Positions 31,897-38,633 of a DNA stretch of 49,915 nt are shown here, one piece after another. The first letter of the stretch is position 1; each line of letters begins with the position of its first letter. A program made the translations under genes and the position numbers. Below the pieces are notes generated by a model. That model searched no databases. It was not told where the DNA came from and saw only the letters and a program-made list of their open reading frames with translations. The DNA comes from Cytophagaceae bacterium (GTDB lineage: Bacteria > Bacteroidota > Bacteroidia > Cytophagales > JAIYAX01). The DNA lies in contig JAIYAX010000008.1 in assembly GCA_027488815.1 (NCBI GenBank), forward strand, positions 1 to 49,915, in the 5' to 3' direction.

Positions 31897-32306
31897 GCCT
31901 CAGTTTAGCACTATGGCACTTTTTTATTTGTTAATTTTTAATTGCTGGTTTGCAAAGTCAATAGTTTGACTATTTTGCGCAGAAATTCATGTTGTAAATA
32001 GTTAACTAATCTCAGGCTTATCAAATCATGCGCAGCCCGTCAAAAACACCCCAGTTCTGGATCATTTGTTTTTTTATACTAGCTAACGCTTCATGGCTTC
32101 AGGCCCAGAGTTTTGATACTTTGGTATTGAAGAATGTCGAAAAGAAGTATGTAACAGGTAGTTTGATCTCAATGCAGAAAGACTATATCGTGTATTTTCG
32201 TCAGAACCTTCCAAATGGCCCTGAATTTAGAATGAGCAAGCAAAATGTGAGGTGGATTATCACGAAGGATAATGAGATTATTGAAGTTTCTGAAAAATTT
32301 AATTCT
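31750..32306 (+). repeat. Segmental duplication, copy A
   Basis: From TCAGAGGCTGG inside miaE through the 131-bp intergenic stretch to about codon 93 of the next gene, this block reappears at 33016-33571 with only scattered changes. The offset is 1265-1266 bp, implying one small indel. The left edge is sharp: the bases before TCAGAGGC do not match. Confidence 0.92.
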
Positions 32307-32822
32307 GAATATAAGATAATTGATGAAGTCGATAGCTCTAGGGCTAAAACAGTAACTGAAAGTGTTCAACCAACTTCTTCCTCTGCACCCAATAGTAATT
32401 CGCAGGAATATTACACCAACCCAGTCACCAGAACAAATATAAGTCCGCAGGAGGATATTAGTAGGGAAAAAAAGAATGAAACTACTTCTTTCAGTTCTCA
32501 ATCAAGTGGCGACCTTTATGTTTTAGGGTTAAGAGATGCTTCAATGTATTATAAAGGCTATAGAGGTGCAGGAACAGGTACATTACTAGTAGGACTATTA
32601 TCGCCTCTTGTGGGCTTAATACCTGCAATTGTTTGTTCATCAACACAACCACAAGAGATAAACTTAAGTTATCCCAAAGCGGACTTGATGAAAAACTCTC
32701 AGTATTACAATGGTTATACCTACAAAGCTAAAAAAATTAAACAAGGAAAAGTTTGGGCAAATTGGGGGATCGCATTTGGTGTAAATTTAGTTGCCATATT
32801 ACTATTAACATCAGGGCAATAA
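32028..32822 (+). CDS. Secreted/membrane paralogue A: N-terminal beta module plus two TM segments
   Basis: A 264-residue protein with signal peptide (CFFILANASWLQAQ). Residues ~27-93 form a small beta module (DTLVLKNVEKKYVTGSLIS, FRMSKQNVRWI) of the kind often annotated only as hypothetical in Bacteroidota. A Ser/Asn/Gln-rich linker follows. Residues ~175-264 begin YYKGYRGAGTGTLLVGLLSP and carry two hydrophobic segments (LVGLLSPLVGLIPAIVC and WGIAFGVNLVAILLL). The N-terminal 93 residues are nearly the same as in paralogue B (33293-34414), while the rest is unrelated. Function is unknown. Confidence 0.8.
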   Translation: MRSPSKTPQFWIICFFILANASWLQAQSFDTLVLKNVEKKYVTGSLISMQKDYIVYFRQNLPNGPEFRMSKQNVRWIITKDNEIIEVSEKFNSEYKIIDEVDSSRAKTVTESVQPTSSSAPNSNSQEYYTNPVTRTNISPQEDISREKKNETTSFSSQSSGDLYVLGLRDASMYYKGYRGAGTGTLLVGLLSPLVGLIPAIVCSSTQPQEINLSYPKADLMKNSQYYNGYTYKAKKIKQGKVWANWGIAFGVNLVAILLLTSGQ

Positions 32823-33162: not shown

Positions 33163-33571
33163 ACACTAGTTTGGCGCCAATAGACTTTTTATTTGTTAAT
33201 TTTTAGTTCCTGGTTTGCAAAGTCAATAGATTGACTATTTTGCACTGAAATTCGTGTTGTAAATAGTTAACTAATCTCAGGCTTATCAAATCATGCGCAG
33301 CCCGGCAAAAACACCTCAGTTCTGGGTCATTTGTTTTTTTATACTAGCTAACGCTTCATGGCTTCAGGCCCAGAGTTTTGATACATTGGTTTTAAAAAAC
33401 ATTGAAAAAAGATATTTGATAGTGAAAGTCTTAAGTATTCAGGCGGATTATGTCGAGTATTTTCGTTATGATTTCCTAAATGGCCCTGAATTCAGGATGA
33501 ATAAGCAAAATGTAAGGTGGATCATTACTTCGAGCAATGAGATTATCGAAGTCTCTGAATCTTTTAACCCT
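33016..33571 (+). repeat. Segmental duplication, copy B
   Basis: Second copy of 31750-32306: miaE 3' end, promoter-bearing intergenic DNA (GGTTTGCAAAGTCAATAG-like block, then GACTATTTTGC) and the first ~93 codons of the paralogue. Most changes in the coding part lie beyond the signal peptide. Confidence 0.92.
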
Positions 33572-34414
33572 GCATATAGATTCACAGACACTACTTCAAA
33601 TACACAACCCACTTTAAATCAAAATATTAAAGCCCCAGCATCTAACCCAGAGAGTACCAAGGAATATTATACAAGATCTAGACCCAGACCGGTCATTTCT
33701 GAGCCGCAACTGCAGAGCAGTAAGATTACCATAATACAAGAAAACAGATATAAAGCTCGACCTAAAAATAATTTTTTCACGTTCACATTTTTGATAGGTG
33801 TTTCTACCCAGCGATTTCAAAACTATCCAGGTTATAAAAATTTTCCAGGAGTATCGGCAGGTTTAGAATTAGGTTATATCGGTATCAAAGAAAAAATTTA
33901 TATTAGCCCTTCAATCAGAGTTGTCTATAAAAACATAAGGTTTGACTATTCAGTTATCGATACATCAGCCAATCTTAATTTAAAGCAGCTTCAAACATTT
34001 ACTTATATCGATTTTTCATTAGCAATAGGCTATGTTTTTTCTGGAAAAAATGGGAATAGAAACGTATTTTTCATTGGCCCTTACTTTGGGTCATTCATTA
34101 AAGGAAACTATCGGGTAAAGTTTGAAGGAATAAGAGTAGGCTACGGTTATGTGGAAGGCGAGTATGGGGGTGATTTGTTGCCAGGAGAATGGGACCCAAA
34201 CGTTCCTTCATTGACGCAATACCGTCGCCCATTTGAAGTTGGTATATTAACGGGATTAAGGTTTCAGGCAAGTCCGAGATTAACAGTAGGTCCGGATATA
34301 AAGTATGGTCTTACCGATATATACCCGCAACTTCGAAATGTTTCAGGAGTTGCAGGTTCTTTACCTCAAATCAGGTCCCTTGCCATTTACTATAGCGTTT
34401 GCTTAATGTTCTAG
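33293..34414 (+). CDS. Secreted paralogue B: same N-terminal module plus outer-membrane beta barrel
   Basis: A 373-residue protein with signal peptide (CFFILANASWLQAQ). The N-terminal module (~27-93) is shared with paralogue A. After a linker rich in Pro, Ser and Arg, residues ~160-373 form a beta-rich region with alternating strands (FFTFTFLIGVSTQRF, VSAGLELGYIG, YIDFSLAIGYVFSG, FEVGILTGLRF), ending SLAIYYSVCLMF. The terminal Phe and strand pattern suggest an outer-membrane beta-barrel domain. The G+C content is lower than in the neighbours. Function is unknown. Confidence 0.8.
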   Translation: MRSPAKTPQFWVICFFILANASWLQAQSFDTLVLKNIEKRYLIVKVLSIQADYVEYFRYDFLNGPEFRMNKQNVRWIITSSNEIIEVSESFNPAYRFTDTTSNTQPTLNQNIKAPASNPESTKEYYTRSRPRPVISEPQLQSSKITIIQENRYKARPKNNFFTFTFLIGVSTQRFQNYPGYKNFPGVSAGLELGYIGIKEKIYISPSIRVVYKNIRFDYSVIDTSANLNLKQLQTFTYIDFSLAIGYVFSGKNGNRNVFFIGPYFGSFIKGNYRVKFEGIRVGYGYVEGEYGGDLLPGEWDPNVPSLTQYRRPFEVGILTGLRFQASPRLTVGPDIKYGLTDIYPQLRNVSGVAGSLPQIRSLAIYYSVCLMF

Positions 34415-34468: not shown

Positions 34469-34497
34469 TTGTCTAACAAACAATTTGCTTAACTTTG
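34469..34497 (+). promoter_or_regulatory. Promoter of the metal-handling operon
   Basis: TTG at 34469-34471 and TAACTTTG (perfect TAnnTTTG) at 34490-34497 are 18 bases apart. The ATG at 34503 comes five bases later, predicting a leaderless transcript. The perfect inverted repeat CTAACAAA (34473-34480) / TTTGTTAG (34494-34501) overlaps the -7 box and could be an operator. Confidence 0.6.
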
Positions 34498-34502
34498 TTA
34501 GT

Positions 34503-34916
34503 ATGAAGTCCTTCCACCTGTTCATCATAATGCTTTACACGCTGGGTCAGCTCGGCTTCAGTGTAAGCAAGCATTACTGTATGGGTATGGTGAAAGAGGT
34601 TAGCTTGTTCAAATACTCCAATATCAATTGTTGCTGTCCTCGAAGCTGGCATCAGAGCGAAGAGCAACCAACCAGAAAATGCTGCCATCAGGAGCAAGAG
34701 TACATCCATGTTGGAGCTGAACAATTAAGCAGTGGCTTAGAAATCAACTTAAGTGCAAGCGATTTTTTAATTTTTGACACCGGGATTATCGTCTTTTCTG
34801 ATGGACTTGCAAATACGTCAAACGCAATCCATCCACCTTGGGATTCATCACAGCATAAGTGGCGGAGGCTTCCTCTCTACTTGCTTTTTCATGAGTTAAA
34901 ACTACCGCAGGCCTGA
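34503..34916 (+). CDS. HYC_CC_PP-type small cysteine-rich exported protein
   Basis: About 137 residues from ATG 34503, chosen over the upstream TTG because the hydrophobic leader (FHLFIIMLYTLGQLGFSVS) starts there and the -7 box lies just ahead. It shows HYC at 24-26, CCC at 43-45, CC at 60-61 and PP at 111-112, the signature that names the HYC_CC_PP family of Bacteroidota. The Cys/His clusters suggest metal binding, probably copper, in the periplasm; the role is undescribed as far as I know. It is the first gene of an operon with two HMA-domain proteins and a TonB receptor. Confidence 0.8.
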   Translation: MKSFHLFIIMLYTLGQLGFSVSKHYCMGMVKEVSLFKYSNINCCCPRSWHQSEEQPTRKCCHQEQEYIHVGAEQLSSGLEINLSASDFLIFDTGIIVFSDGLANTSNAIHPPWDSSQHKWRRLPLYLLFHELKLPQA

Positions 34917-34964
34917 TTGGCGTTCGCTCAGTTTTAATCATTTCATCAATCCTCAACATTTTTC

Positions 34965-35684
34965 ATGAAAAAGACCTATGCCATTACCGGCATGCACTGC
35001 ATGAGTTGCATTGCCAAAGTGGAGAAATCCATCTACCAATTGGGTGGGATACGTAAAGCCTCAGCAGAGCTGGAGACCCATTCACTCCACATCGAGGCTG
35101 ATCAATTACCATCGGAAGATCAAATTCGTAAGGCACTATCAGAGGCCGGAGATTATGCTATTTCCTCCCAGGCTGAACCAGTGATATCATTGCGTAAATC
35201 GGGGTTTTGGTTGACCTACAAGCCCCTATTGCTGATCGCAGCTTATCTTTTAGTTCTGTCGATGCTGCTTTCCCTTCGATCAGAGACGCCGCTAGAGACC
35301 GGTATGATGGTGTTTATGTCCGGATTTTTTCTGGTGTTTTCTTTTTTTAAGATGCTGGACCTCAAAGGTTTTTCACAGTCCTACCAGATGTATGATTTAC
35401 TCGCTAGCAAATGGCCGACTTATGGATTGATGTATCCTTTTATTGAAGCTTTGCTGGGGCTGGGATATGTTTTGAATCTGGACCCTGTTGCTTTGAATTC
35501 GATTACCTTAATCCTCATGCTTTTTGGTGCAGCCGGAGTGGGGCGGAGCCTTCTACAAAAGAAGGCCATCCAATGTGCCTGTCTGGGAACGGTTTTCAAC
35601 TTGCATATGAGTAAAGTAACGCTGGTAGAAGATCTGTTGATGGCTGCTATGGCAGCATACATGCTTTTCATTCATATCCTTTAA
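34965..35684 (+). CDS. HMA domain fused to MauE/DoxX-like membrane protein
   Basis: A 239-residue protein. Residues 1-70 are a heavy-metal-associated domain with the metal loop GMHCMSC (Cys12, Cys15). After a short linker come four membrane segments (about 85-105, 115-135, 155-170, 175-235 region) of the MauE/DoxX type, with WPTYGLMYPFIEALLGLGY and a CAC motif before LGTVFNLHMSKVTLVED. The fusion suggests delivery of a soft metal or reducing power across the inner membrane. It is 48 bases after the HYC gene and 12 before the periplasmic HMA gene. Confidence 0.85.
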   Translation: MKKTYAITGMHCMSCIAKVEKSIYQLGGIRKASAELETHSLHIEADQLPSEDQIRKALSEAGDYAISSQAEPVISLRKSGFWLTYKPLLLIAAYLLVLSMLLSLRSETPLETGMMVFMSGFFLVFSFFKMLDLKGFSQSYQMYDLLASKWPTYGLMYPFIEALLGLGYVLNLDPVALNSITLILMLFGAAGVGRSLLQKKAIQCACLGTVFNLHMSKVTLVEDLLMAAMAAYMLFIHIL

Positions 35685-35696
35685 TTTTTGATCCTT

Positions 35697-36059
35697 ATGA
35701 AACTTTTCCTAAATGTTTCCTCCATTATACTATTTCTGTTGCTCGGCAGCAGCTCCATTTTTGCTCAGTCTACCTCTAAAAGTGGCTTTACTGAGGCCAG
35801 GTTTGTGGTAAAAGGGGTTTGCAACATGTGCAAAGAACGAATTGAAACCACCCTGGATGTAAAAGGGGTTAAGTATGCCGAATGGAATCTGGTGACCGAT
35901 ACGCTTTTTGTGGTCTACCATCCTGCAAAGATTAGCCTGGAACGAATTCACGAGTTATTGGCTAACGCCGGTCATGATACCGAACTCAAAAAAGCCTCAG
36001 ACGAAAGCTATCGAAAGATAGATGACTGCTGCAGGTACCGTGAGTTGGAAAAGCACTGA
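35697..36059 (+). CDS. Periplasmic HMA-domain metallochaperone-like protein
   Basis: About 120 residues from ATG 35697; the signal peptide (FLNVSSIILFLLLGSSSIFAQ) begins there and the upstream TTG adds nothing. The mature part is one HMA domain with the metal loop GVCNMCKERIE. A C-terminal tail with DDCC adds two more Cys. It probably binds Cu(I) or a similar ion in the periplasm. The TonB receptor starts two bases after its stop, so the two proteins are likely made together and may exchange metal. Confidence 0.87.
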   Translation: MKLFLNVSSIILFLLLGSSSIFAQSTSKSGFTEARFVVKGVCNMCKERIETTLDVKGVKYAEWNLVTDTLFVVYHPAKISLERIHELLANAGHDTELKKASDESYRKIDDCCRYRELEKH

Positions 36060-36061
36060 CC

Positions 36062-38326
36062 ATGAAGGCTATCCGAGTATTTCCTGCCCTTTTTTTAGGG
36101 GCATGGCAACTGTTTCATTCCCCTCAGGTTCATGCTCAGCAAGTTCGGGGATTAGTTCTTGAGCAAGATGACAAAGGAAAATTGAGCCCTTTGCAAGGGG
36201 TGAATGTATATTGGCTGGGAACCCAAGAGGGCACTTCCACAGACAGCCTTGGTTTTTTTGAGATTCCTACACTAGCAGGAAGCAAGCAACTTGTTTTCTC
36301 CTACATAGGCTACAAGGCTGATACCCTTTATGCAAAACCCACCAAGGAATTGCAGGTGGTTTTGAAACAGGTTCGGGAACTGGATGAAGTTACCGTCATG
36401 TACCGAAGCAAGGCCACCGAAATATCATCCCTTGATGTTCAAAAGATACAGGTCATGTCTGAGAAAGAGCTTTTCAAAGCAGCCTGTTGCAATCTTTCCG
36501 AGAGCTTTGAAACCAACCCATCCATAGATGTCTCCCTTACGGATGCAGTGACCGGCACCAGGCAGATACAAATGCTAGGCCTTGGCAGCCCATATATGCT
36601 GTTTAGTCAGGAAAACATGCCCACCATTCGTGGATTGGCGGCCAATCAGGGATTTGGTTTTATACCGGGAACATGGATTGAGAGCATTCAAGTCAGTAAG
36701 GGTACCGGCTCTGTAGTGAACGGATTTGAAAGCATGACCGGCCAGCTGAATCTGGAATATCAGAAGCCGGAACAAGGAGACCGATTGTACCTTAATGGCT
36801 ATTTCAATGAAAGTGGGCGCATGGAGGGCAATGTGGTCTCATCCTACAAATTGGGAAAGAAAACAGGCAACACCACCTTTTTGCATTACAGCCAAAGGCC
36901 CTGGGAGGTTGACAACAATGGTGATCGTTTCGTTGATCTTCCTCGAGGAACGCAATTGAACCTGATGAATCGAATGATGTTTGCCGACCCCGCCAAAGGG
37001 GTAGAGGCCCAGCTTGGTTTTCGACTCATCCAGGATGTTAAAGTAGCTGGAAACCTGGGTTATGATCCAAGAAGAACAGTATCAAACGTTTACGGTATGC
37101 AATTCCTCATTCAAAGAGTGGAAGTGTGGTCAAAGATTGGATATGTGTTTCCCAATCACCGTTACAGGAGCGTTGGCTTTCAGTCCTCCTTTCTGACTCA
37201 TGCTCAATCTGGATCATTTGGCCGTACCGACACCAGGAGCAGCCAGCATGGTATTTATGCCAACCTCATATATCAGACCATTGTCGGTAATACGTATCAT
37301 GTCTTGAAAACAGGACTGTCCTATCAGGGGGATCGTATGTTTGAAATACTGGCTCCTTTTGAGTTTTTCAGAGAAGAGCATGTTCCCGGAGCTTTTACCG
37401 AATACCAATGGACGATAAGTCCCAAGGCAAGTATAGTAGCAGGGATGAGGGCGGATTACCACTCCCTTTTTGGATGGTTTGCCACTCCACGCCTTCATGC
37501 CCGTTGGGAGATTGCTCCTAAGACTGTGCTCCGATTTTCTTCAGGCCAGGGTCGGCGCTCCGCCAATCTGATTGCAGAAAATGAAGGCCTGCTTTTTTCC
37601 TCAAGGCAATGGAGAATTCAACCCACTCAACAAGGAGGAATTTATGGTTTCCAGCAGGAACTTAGCACCAATGCCGGCTTGAGTCTTACCCGCAACTTCA
37701 GGCTCGACTATCGGGATGGGTTTTATTCCATCGAGTATTTCCATACCCGTTTTCAAAGACAAGTGGTGGTTGATGTAGATGCCAACAGCAGAGAAGTCAA
37801 TTACTATGCTCTGCAAGGCGAGTCTTTTGCTCATGCATTTCAGGCAGAGGCTGAGTATGAACTTTTCAAGAGGTTTGACCTTCGCCTGGCCTACCGACAG
37901 TATCTGATACAGACAGATTTTCAGCAGGGGAGGTTAGAAAAAGCACTGGTAGCTCGCCATCGGGCATTTGCCAACATTGCTTACGAAACAAGAGGCAAGC
38001 TTTGGAACATTGATTTTACCGTCCAGTACATTGGATCCAAAAGACTGCCACAGACAAGGGATAAGCCGGTTGAATTTCAGCGAGAAGCCCGCTCACCCGG
38101 CTATTTCATTGCCAATGCACAAGTGACACGGTTGATTACAAAAAGCTGGCATGCCTATCTGGGCATCGAAAACATCACCGGCTTTGTGCAAAGGAACCCC
38201 ATCATCTCCGTTGACTCACCTTATGGTCCACACTTTGATGCAACTATGGTATGGGCTCCGATCTTTGGGCGCATGTTTTATGTCGGATTTAGGTATCGCT
38301 TGAAAAAGGAAAAGGAGAAAAGGTAG
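36062..38326 (+). CDS. TonB-dependent receptor of the metal-handling operon
   Basis: A 754-residue outer-membrane receptor. After a signal peptide (ending VHAQQ) comes a CarboxypepD_reg-like domain (~25-105, ending VVLKQVRELDEVTV). A plug domain (~110-240, with KELFKAACCNLSESFETNPS and SIQVSKGTGSVVNGFESMTG) and a 22-strand-type barrel follow, ending in YVGFRYRLKKEKEKR. The CC pair in the plug is notable beside three Cys-rich partners. It is likely to import a metal or metal complex; copper is my guess from the HMA neighbours. It ends the operon. Confidence 0.9.
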   Translation: MKAIRVFPALFLGAWQLFHSPQVHAQQVRGLVLEQDDKGKLSPLQGVNVYWLGTQEGTSTDSLGFFEIPTLAGSKQLVFSYIGYKADTLYAKPTKELQVVLKQVRELDEVTVMYRSKATEISSLDVQKIQVMSEKELFKAACCNLSESFETNPSIDVSLTDAVTGTRQIQMLGLGSPYMLFSQENMPTIRGLAANQGFGFIPGTWIESIQVSKGTGSVVNGFESMTGQLNLEYQKPEQGDRLYLNGYFNESGRMEGNVVSSYKLGKKTGNTTFLHYSQRPWEVDNNGDRFVDLPRGTQLNLMNRMMFADPAKGVEAQLGFRLIQDVKVAGNLGYDPRRTVSNVYGMQFLIQRVEVWSKIGYVFPNHRYRSVGFQSSFLTHAQSGSFGRTDTRSSQHGIYANLIYQTIVGNTYHVLKTGLSYQGDRMFEILAPFEFFREEHVPGAFTEYQWTISPKASIVAGMRADYHSLFGWFATPRLHARWEIAPKTVLRFSSGQGRRSANLIAENEGLLFSSRQWRIQPTQQGGIYGFQQELSTNAGLSLTRNFRLDYRDGFYSIEYFHTRFQRQVVVDVDANSREVNYYALQGESFAHAFQAEAEYELFKRFDLRLAYRQYLIQTDFQQGRLEKALVARHRAFANIAYETRGKLWNIDFTVQYIGSKRLPQTRDKPVEFQREARSPGYFIANAQVTRLITKSWHAYLGIENITGFVQRNPIISVDSPYGPHFDATMVWAPIFGRMFYVGFRYRLKKEKEKR

Positions 38327-38468: not shown

Positions 38469-38633
38469 ATGGGAAAAGGAGATAAAAAATCAAAAAGAGG
38501 TAAAATCGCCATTGGTAGCTACGGAGTAAACAGGAAGCGTACTGACAACAAGGTGAGCATAAGCAAACCGGCTGCTGAAGCTGTGGCTAGCCCTGAGGCC
38601 GCAAAACCAGTTAGAAAGAAAAAGACCGCTTAA
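38469..38633 (+). CDS. 30S ribosomal protein THX
   Basis: A 54-residue basic protein starting MGKGDKKSKRGKIAIGSYG, the THX signature; the rest is an Ala/Pro/Lys tail. THX sits in a pocket at the head of the 30S subunit. The start at 38469 is set by the family N-terminus and the promoter at 38409-38440. It is convergent with the exonuclease gene, one base apart. Confidence 0.9.
   Translation: MGKGDKKSKRGKIAIGSYGVNRKRTDNKVSISKPAAEAVASPEAAKPVRKKKTA

Follow-up and report, generated by a model that had tools for sequence, protein, structure and literature searches.

A probable copper-sensing leader ORF at the head of a TonB receptor and HMA operon in Bacteroidota

A metal operon of four genes, with all ORFs on the + strand and gaps of 48, 12 and 2 nt, is encoded by a Cytophagaceae bacterium (Table 1). 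The window, meaning the whole stretch of DNA analysed, comprises 49,915 nucleotides of contig JAIYAX010000008.1. The first gene of the operon encodes a small protein of the HYC_CC_PP family (HYC hereafter). On balance, we favor the reading that HYC is a copper-sensing regulatory leader, heading an operon for the acquisition of copper or of a Cu/Ag-like soft metal, and that it probably has no part in the transport machinery itself. The comparison with leader ORFs like CruR and CutF is based on three features: a fixed 5' position, a motif spacing, and a hairpin predicted to sequester the start of the next gene.

Table 1. Positions of the operon genes, conserved motifs and predicted RNA hairpin in the window.
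Feature	Position	Strand	Properties
HYC_CC_PP, candidate leader ORF	34503..34916	+	137 aa; ATG start; NF047658 match, no Pfam match
H24-Y25-C26 motif	34572..34580	+	109 relatives: C26 invariant, H24 nearly so
C60-C61 pair	34680..34685	+	both nearly invariant (109 relatives)
P111-P112 pair	34833..34838	+	nearly invariant (109 relatives)
Predicted start-sequestering RNA hairpin	34884..34973	+	fold energy and pairing prediction
HMA-MauE membrane protein	34965..35684	+	239 aa; Pfam HMA 4e-11, MauE 4e-12
Exported HMA protein	35697..36059	+	120 aa; Pfam HMA 3e-6
C-terminal Cys-Cys of HMA protein	36027..36032	+	conserved: CC in 69/89 relatives
TonB-dependent receptor, CCNLSESF plug subfamily	36062..38326	+	754 aa; Pfam Plug, TonB barrel
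Plug C142-C143 pair of receptor	36485..36490	+	invariant columns, HYC-seeded alignment

The preliminary description had recognized the four genes and their spacing, and all ORFs and profile matches were confirmed. It had also named joint occurrence of the genes in other genomes as a test, and they do occur together. When named loci were retrieved through the receptor only, 71 of 80 had HYC beside it (69 of the 74 for which 1 kb or more of sequence was available upstream), 60 had an HMA protein and 12 an HMA-MauE protein. This co-occurrence exceeds chance. A TTG-started ORF at the HYC gene begins at 34485. An Rfam scan of the operon retrieved no known RNA family, and a promoter scan gave nothing useful. 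Terminator-like sites were somewhat commoner than in shuffled sequences, with none on the + strand at the HYC/HMA-MauE junction. A literature search found no paper on a receptor-HMA operon of this kind.

The gene order around HYC is conserved. The gene 3' of HYC is directly adjoining and co-directional in 122 of 126 loci, and in all 60 held-out loci, while its upstream neighbor is co-directional in only 66 of 121. HYC is also the first metal gene in 96 of 97 receptor arrays, although the HMA and TonB genes swap their order. The cargo directly downstream varies between TonB, HMA, HMA-MauE and RND genes. On the HYC tree, which is weakly resolved and was used only for counting these exchanges, the cargo changed at least nine times, six of them forced by supported branches. 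HYC was present in 41 of 59 sampled genomes of the window's order, and in 59 of 198 from the phylum Bacteroidota. The arrangement thus recurs throughout this phylum, the major bacterial one in gut, soil and sea.

The first ORF of the window matches the NCBIfam model NF047658 (HYC_CC_PP) with 32.2 bits, at a cut-off of 28. Throughout the family, conservation is confined to the HYC motif (H.C), a C, the CC and PP pairs, and the last ~17 residues with the tail motif F[LR]I-stop, and a linker of 50 residues varies freely. The spacing is conserved as well, with ~56 residues between CC and PP (mostly 54–60; 51 in the window by the same count) and ~16 between PP and the stop (mostly 15–17; 25 in the window member). 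With its long tail after PP and a score near the cut-off, the window HYC appears divergent and may have drifted. The N terminus carries a hydrophobic helix (residues 2–16) both in the sequence and in the model, which may be an export signal. AlphaFold predicts, fairly confidently, a small unit of three strands built around the HYC hairpin and the strand that follows CC, and much of the chain has low confidence. Neither a sequence search against solved structures nor a fold search with the model retrieved a relative, and a Pfam scan of 109 HYC proteins gave weak, scattered matches only (DUF6769 in four).

Exported-looking, Cys-rich and always found with metal genes, HYC could instead be a stable periplasmic metal-binding protein, one of four proteins that pass the metal on between receptor and inner membrane, and the hairpin would be incidental. 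The fairly confident three-stranded unit would fit such a role, yet much of the chain is of low confidence and no known fold was matched. Moreover, nothing would require a relay partner to stand always immediately 5' of the gene that it serves, to keep a fixed ruler from CC to PP to stop beside a freely varying linker, or to have its stop codon base-paired to the following start. We consider this role improbable. Of the four-protein relay in the preliminary description, the operon and its metal theme stand, whereas HYC as a structural partner is disfavored by its fixed position, its spacing and the hairpin.

An inverted repeat, absent from the preliminary description, links the 3' end of ORF 1 with the beginning of ORF 2. 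In the predicted hairpin, an outer helix of 11 bp pairs the leader codons at 34884–34894 with 34963–34973, covering the HMA-MauE start codon (34965–34967), and an inner helix pairs 34895–34903 with 34930–34938. The region 34870–35000 has a minimum free energy of −30.5 kcal/mol (z −3.54; none of 200 shuffles equally low), and the HMA-MauE start codon is predicted to pair with the leader end with a probability of 0.999. Across loci, the predicted pairing of the HYC stop with the next start reaches 0.414, as compared with 0.183 in 499 control junctions (p = 2.7e-30) and 0.173 in a gap-matched control. The held-out set behaved similarly (0.38 vs 0.06, p = 6.2e-10; second p-value from its RNA tests 4.4e-9). 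Pairing is strongest at the stop codon of HYC (0.46 vs 0.06). The junctions are too unlike in length and sequence for a formal covariation count on one aligned clade, and the arms of each locus were instead compared with arms swapped between loci. Own arms paired better than swapped ones (p = 1.6e-12), with p = 0.94 in the controls. The stop-start pairing at HYC junctions is thus non-random, with matched arms. A clear hairpin score was obtained for roughly 60–70% of the HYC loci, not for all. TGA is the stop codon in 64 of 126 HYC genes, versus 217 of 1408 controls.

The position of the 5' arm, on the last HYC codons and the stop, is also the seat of a terminating ribosome. The hairpin might therefore serve plain translational coupling, tying the next gene to the completion of HYC and setting stoichiometry without any metal sensing. 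This would leave the His/Cys motifs, the PP, the fixed spacing to the stop and the restriction to metal genes unexplained, and it seems to us quite unlikely.

In the copper-sensing leader that we favor, HYC would be sensor and switch at once, an exported nascent chain with a metal-binding His/Cys cluster. As CC lies ~73–76 residues from the C terminus, roughly the span of tunnel plus translocon, metal would be bound at the periplasmic face of SecYEG once the ribosome has reached, or nearly reached, the ORF's end. The mRNA of the last leader codons and the stop would pair with, and so hide, the region where the next gene starts. A ribosome held at the leader end would overlap the 5' arm, open the hairpin and allow translation of the next gene, while a ribosome leaving quickly, or held upstream at PP, would let the hairpin close. 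Metal binding would alter the dwell time of the ribosome at the leader end. The read-out would be a ribosome on or off the last leader codons, which also form an arm of the start-hiding hairpin. Bacteroidota make little use of Shine-Dalgarno signals. Similar leaders stand before genes of the uptake type as well as of the efflux type, so that the sequence alone does not give the sign of the control.

The receptor, the periplasmic HMA protein and HMA-MauE would form the effector part. HMA-MauE has an N-terminal HMA domain with GMHCMSC and a MauE domain with CACLGT; CACLG is kept in every Bacteroidota relative seen, and the glutaredoxin fusions have CACVG. The exported HMA protein has a CNMC motif and ends in ...DDCCRYRELEKH. 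The receptor also matches CarbopepD_reg_2 in Pfam, and its AlphaFold model matches TonB receptors in a fold search. Its Cys pair is present in 109 of 109 readable rows, a count biased by the many rows fetched with a pattern containing the motif. Placing the pair in the receptor model was not interpretable, as the surrounding region has a pLDDT at or below 50. A relay from the TonB receptor to HMA and on to HMA-MauE is plausible. We infer that the metal would enter through the outer membrane, pass between paired cysteines in the periplasm, and be delivered at the inner membrane or carried across it.

The metal of the operon is most likely copper, judging from the company its genes keep. At other loci, HYC precedes CusA-type pumps (the CusA Met triad is present in 17 of 18 RNDs downstream of HYC) or sits beside CopA/CopZ (two loci), and relatives of MauE sit in copper islands. 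These neighbors support the metal theme proposed in the preliminary description, with copper as the best guess. Another metal, such as mercury, silver, zinc or a further soft metal, is conceivable, as HMA domains bind several metals and MerTP models match the HMA part. The match is confined to that part, though, the Mer membrane module is absent, and the neighbors of the relatives are copper genes, which makes a metal other than copper unlikely.

The same neighbors bear on whether the operon serves metal uptake or defence. The receptor and the HMA proteins could be part of a regulon for copper stress that also holds Cus-type efflux, Csp-like proteins and multicopper oxidases, and this would be compatible with HYC as a leader. 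Such a role is suggested by HYC before Met-triad RND pumps and by MauE kin in copper-resistance islands. Further, RND/CopA, receptor and DUF326 loci are all accompanied by an AraC-type regulator whose N terminus resembles HMA, and one array (L054) joins the receptor with a 1445-aa gene of unchecked type. TonB receptors, however, are importers. A search of the window's own genome by family revealed a single P-type ATPase, adjoining a cbb3-type oxidase cluster, and a single HME-RND, with E-A-E instead of the Met triad. Placed and built in this way, they leave no clear CopA or CusA for the operon to assist. We regard defence as a possible, but less likely, function.

P. distasonis is anaerobic, and little need for copper is known in it. 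It has HYC before an RND, and a small unnamed ORF lies ahead of a receptor-HMA pair; we count this against the copper-sensing leader.

The preliminary description knew of no mechanism for HYC_CC_PP. A literature search by this name indeed found no paper, whereas leaders of the same design have been described (PMC9426467, PMC9973294). The nearest precedent for a leader before a TonB gene is CruR (Bp2923, DUF2946) of the crtA/bfrG operon in Bordetella pertussis, the Cys motif of which is required for copper control (PMC9426467, PMC12914433). CruR, which is exported, and HYC, which looks exported, are both small Cys-containing first ORFs before a TonB-dependent transporter gene, with a C-proximal PP and a fixed Cys-PP spacing. 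CruR has RAPP three residues before its end, a CXXC-PP spacing of 45 and Rho-dependent termination. In contrast, HYC has no RAPP, its PP lies ~16 residues before the end at a spacing of ~56, and it has the start-hiding hairpin. Near the C terminus of the window HYC, RAPP was not found; the sequence there is IHPPWDSS..., with 25 residues after PP. None of the 25 families listed in a scan of 109 HYC relatives is DUF2946 (PF11162), and none of 59 related genomes holds it; 41 of these genomes carry HYC.

For the hairpin, the closest precedents are CutF-cutO of Rhodobacter capsulatus and the CutF-like proteins of Ozturk et al. (PMC9973294). CutF is an exported leader, and HYC looks exported; they have in common a Cys motif, a C-terminal Pro motif, and a stem-loop, predicted in the case of HYC, that hides the next start. 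Like CutF-like proteins, HYC is encoded directly upstream of co-directional metal genes, with a predicted start-hiding stem-loop. The CutF stem-loop masks a Shine-Dalgarno sequence, whereas the predicted HYC hairpin lies over the start codon and its surroundings, with a 5' arm made of the leader's last codons and stop. The published filter takes PP at most 15 residues from the C terminus (PMC9973294), and the window HYC falls outside it. As the published set includes many Bacteroidota, HYC members may lie there unrecognized (PMC9973294).

The effector proteins also have described counterparts. OprC, a TonB-dependent copper receptor with an essential plug Cys (PMC8610252), is among the fold matches of the receptor model, with several iron and B12 receptors ranking above it in Foldseek. 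The OprC site is CxxxM-HxM, whereas the window receptor has the invariant CC (C142-C143-N-L-S-E) and no CxxxM there, and TIGR01778 is not among its profile matches. MauE/DoxX proteins of copper islands occur as glutaredoxin-MauE in Salinimonas and Phaeobacter plasmids, and Bernardetia encodes HMA and MauE in separate genes. They share the CAC[LV]G motif and the MauE domain with the window protein, but the window has an HMA-MauE fusion, encoded behind the leader and beside the receptor.

Whether HYC_CC_PP represents a Bacteroidota class of co-translational copper sensors, distinct from DUF2946 and with a switch reused several times before importers and exporters, we regard as about an even chance. 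A recent survey found copper-related RAPP/RGPP leaders missing from Bacteroidota (PMC12992588), and HYC, if the reading is true, would stand in their place. The hairpin formed from the leader's own end would then be a distinct coupling of nascent-chain sensing to expression. For a family under whose name no paper was found, this gives a testable function: its members would be regulators, not transport parts, and the uncharacterized receptor subfamily next to them would be a likely copper importer.

The preliminary description proposed a relay of four proteins moving copper or a similar metal from the outer to the cytoplasmic membrane. Its plus-strand arrangement, with gaps of 48, 12 and 2 nt, was confirmed in the window, as were its domains: HMA and MauE in the second ORF, HMA in the third, and a plug and TonB barrel in the fourth. 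The first ORF, hereafter HYC, matched the HYC_CC_PP profile NF047658 (32.2 bits, cut-off 28). Pfam gave no match for the window protein, no relatives were found among solved structures, and our literature search found no paper using the family name. Two adjacent co-directional ORFs with a near-identical N terminus (MRSP[SA]KTPQFW.ICFFILANASWLQAQSFDTLVLKN.EK), divergent beyond it, form a tandem duplication directly upstream of the operon. Downstream of the receptor, a small basic ORF (MGKGDKKSKRGKIAIGSYGVNRKR...) looks like ribosomal protein bTHX.

Coordinates of the features discussed; L numbers denote neighbourhood loci
Feature	Sequence	Position
HYC gene (+)	window	34503-34916
HMA-MauE gene (+)	window	34965-35684
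Exported HMA protein gene (+)	window	35697-36059
TonB receptor gene (+)	window	36062-38326
Predicted 5' hairpin arm, in leader	window	34884-34894
Predicted 3' hairpin arm, with HMA-MauE start codon	window	34963-34973
Duplicated ORFs	window	32028-32822; 33293-34414
bTHX-like ORF	window	38470-38633
Back-to-back HYC genes, one per strand	L101	2222-2596; 2731-3117
ORF before multicopper oxidase gene	L088	9554-9943
AraC-type regulator with HMA-like N terminus	L034, L037, L043, L054, L062, L066, L071, L072, L081	

HYC was present in 41 of 59 related genomes, and a phylum-wide sample of 198 genomes yielded 59 with it. In 14-kb neighbourhoods it precedes genes of two kinds, those for receptors of a single TonB subfamily and those for heavy-metal RND pumps. 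The expected co-occurrence also held with the receptor as seed: among 80 loci from named genomes, HYC lay beside the receptor in 71 (69 of the 74 with at least 1 kb of upstream sequence), the HMA protein occurred in 60 and HMA-MauE in 12. Pooling both sets, the orders were HYC-HMA-TonB (35), HYC-TonB-HMA (26), HYC-TonB (21) and HYC-(HMA-MauE)-TonB-HMA (9), with HYC first in 96 of 97 arrays. Every receptor in the HYC-seeded alignment A1 has the plug Cys pair, 69 of 89 HMA proteins keep the C-terminal CC, and HMA-MauE proteins keep both CACLG and the C..C HMA site. One locus, L101, carries two divergent HYC genes. Two P. distasonis "plasmid" records (NZ_OY725753.1, L033; NZ_OY725762.1, L085) hold the housekeeping genes metF, ftsK, trxB and smpB and are probably chromosome pieces.

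The role of HYC as a relay partner does not fit two facts, its polarity and its conservation pattern. The following gene, at a median distance of ~80 nt, runs in the direction of HYC in 122 of 126 cases (60 of 60 in held-out loci), the preceding one in 66 of 121. This cargo varies between TonB, HMA, HMA-MauE and RND, changing at least nine times on a weakly resolved HYC tree. The conserved elements of the protein are the HYC motif, one Cys, CC, PP and its C-terminal residues, right up to the stop. The linker varies freely, yet spacing is fixed (CC-PP mostly 54-60, PP-stop mostly 15-17). Of 126 HYC proteins, 81 have Ile as their final residue, and TGA ends 64 of 126 HYC genes vs 217 of 1408 control genes.

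RNA pairing between the HYC end and the next start region averaged 0.414 vs 0.183 at 499 other co-directional junctions of the same loci (p=2.7e-30; this and the following p-values are optimistic, because the first ATG served as start codon throughout and the loci include related, hence non-independent, sequences). Gap-matched controls gave 0.173, and folding was stronger after HYC than at control junctions (mean z -2.5 vs -1.5). Pairing had two maxima, one at the stop codon of HYC (0.46 vs 0.06) and one between -24 and +5 relative to the next start, and was found with every cargo type. Swapping partners between loci weakened the pairing of HYC arms (p=1.6e-12) but not that of control junctions (p=0.94). 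With zones fixed beforehand, 60 held-out loci gave 0.377 vs 0.058 (p=6.2e-10; matched vs swapped p=4.4e-9); a few of their genomes were already represented in the first set, by the same HYC locus or by another one. The pairing claim rests on the size of the effect and on the held-out loci. In the window, the two arms of the predicted fold (z -3.54) are perfectly complementary.

By analogy, the HYC locus has the anatomy of leader ORFs that sense copper. One of these, CruR (DUF2946), is the first gene of a TonB transporter operon in B. pertussis, with CXXC as copper sensor and RAPP for ribosome arrest (PMC9426467), an arrest demonstrated in vitro (PMC12992588); the transporter takes up copper in chelated form, which serves respiratory oxidases (PMC12914433). 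A stem-loop that covers the ribosome-binding site lets CutF control cutO in R. capsulatus (PMC9973294). HYC would apply this logic with different components. A ribosome standing on the stop codon of HYC would cover the 5' arm; judging from footprint size, one at PP, ~16 codons earlier, would fall short of it. Counted from the C terminus, the CC sits ~73-76 residues in, which roughly matches the combined length of tunnel and SecYEG; the Cys cluster should therefore enter the periplasm just when the ribosome reaches the arm. Copper may either open or close the gate, as the sequence is compatible with both directions. Unlike CruR, HYC lacks RAPP, and profile testing gave no DUF2946 membership; the likeness to that family would be one of function. 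Copper RAPP/RGPP leaders were reported as not found in Bacteroidota (PMC12992588), and a published CutF-like list with many Bacteroidota proteins (PMC9973294) may already contain HYC members. An ORF on a Salinimonas plasmid (L088), annotated merely as hypothetical, has a Cys-rich DCCEDGCLC cluster followed by the end ...STPPYRPPIA and is a probable CopL/CutF-like leader.

Several neighbours bear on the metal. When aligned to E. coli CusA, 17 of 18 RND proteins downstream of HYC (exception L060; not counting the additional RND that L046 has upstream of HYC) have Met at 573/623/672, the positions that bind Cu(I)/Ag(I) in that pump. CopA and CopZ genes lie immediately upstream of HYC in L034 and L037. 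The closest plasmid relatives of the MauE part sit in copper islands, which also hold DUF305, heavy-metal P-type ATPase, CopC/CopD and multicopper oxidase genes. A regulator of the AraC type (~190 aa), whose N terminus bears an HMA-like KNMVC.RC motif and which may sense metal directly, accompanies RND, receptor and DUF326 arrays. In the window's own genome, the single P-type ATPase adjoins an apparent cbb3 oxidase cluster and the single HME-RND lacks the Met triad, which favours copper supply to respiration over defence. Anaerobes such as P. distasonis also hold such genes, which cautions against a single role for all operons.

This study links copper-leader logic to HYC_CC_PP, adding a predicted hairpin formed from the leader's own end, a conserved spacing ruler in the HYC tail, and a receptor subfamily that, with its invariant plug Cys pair, is a likely copper importer.
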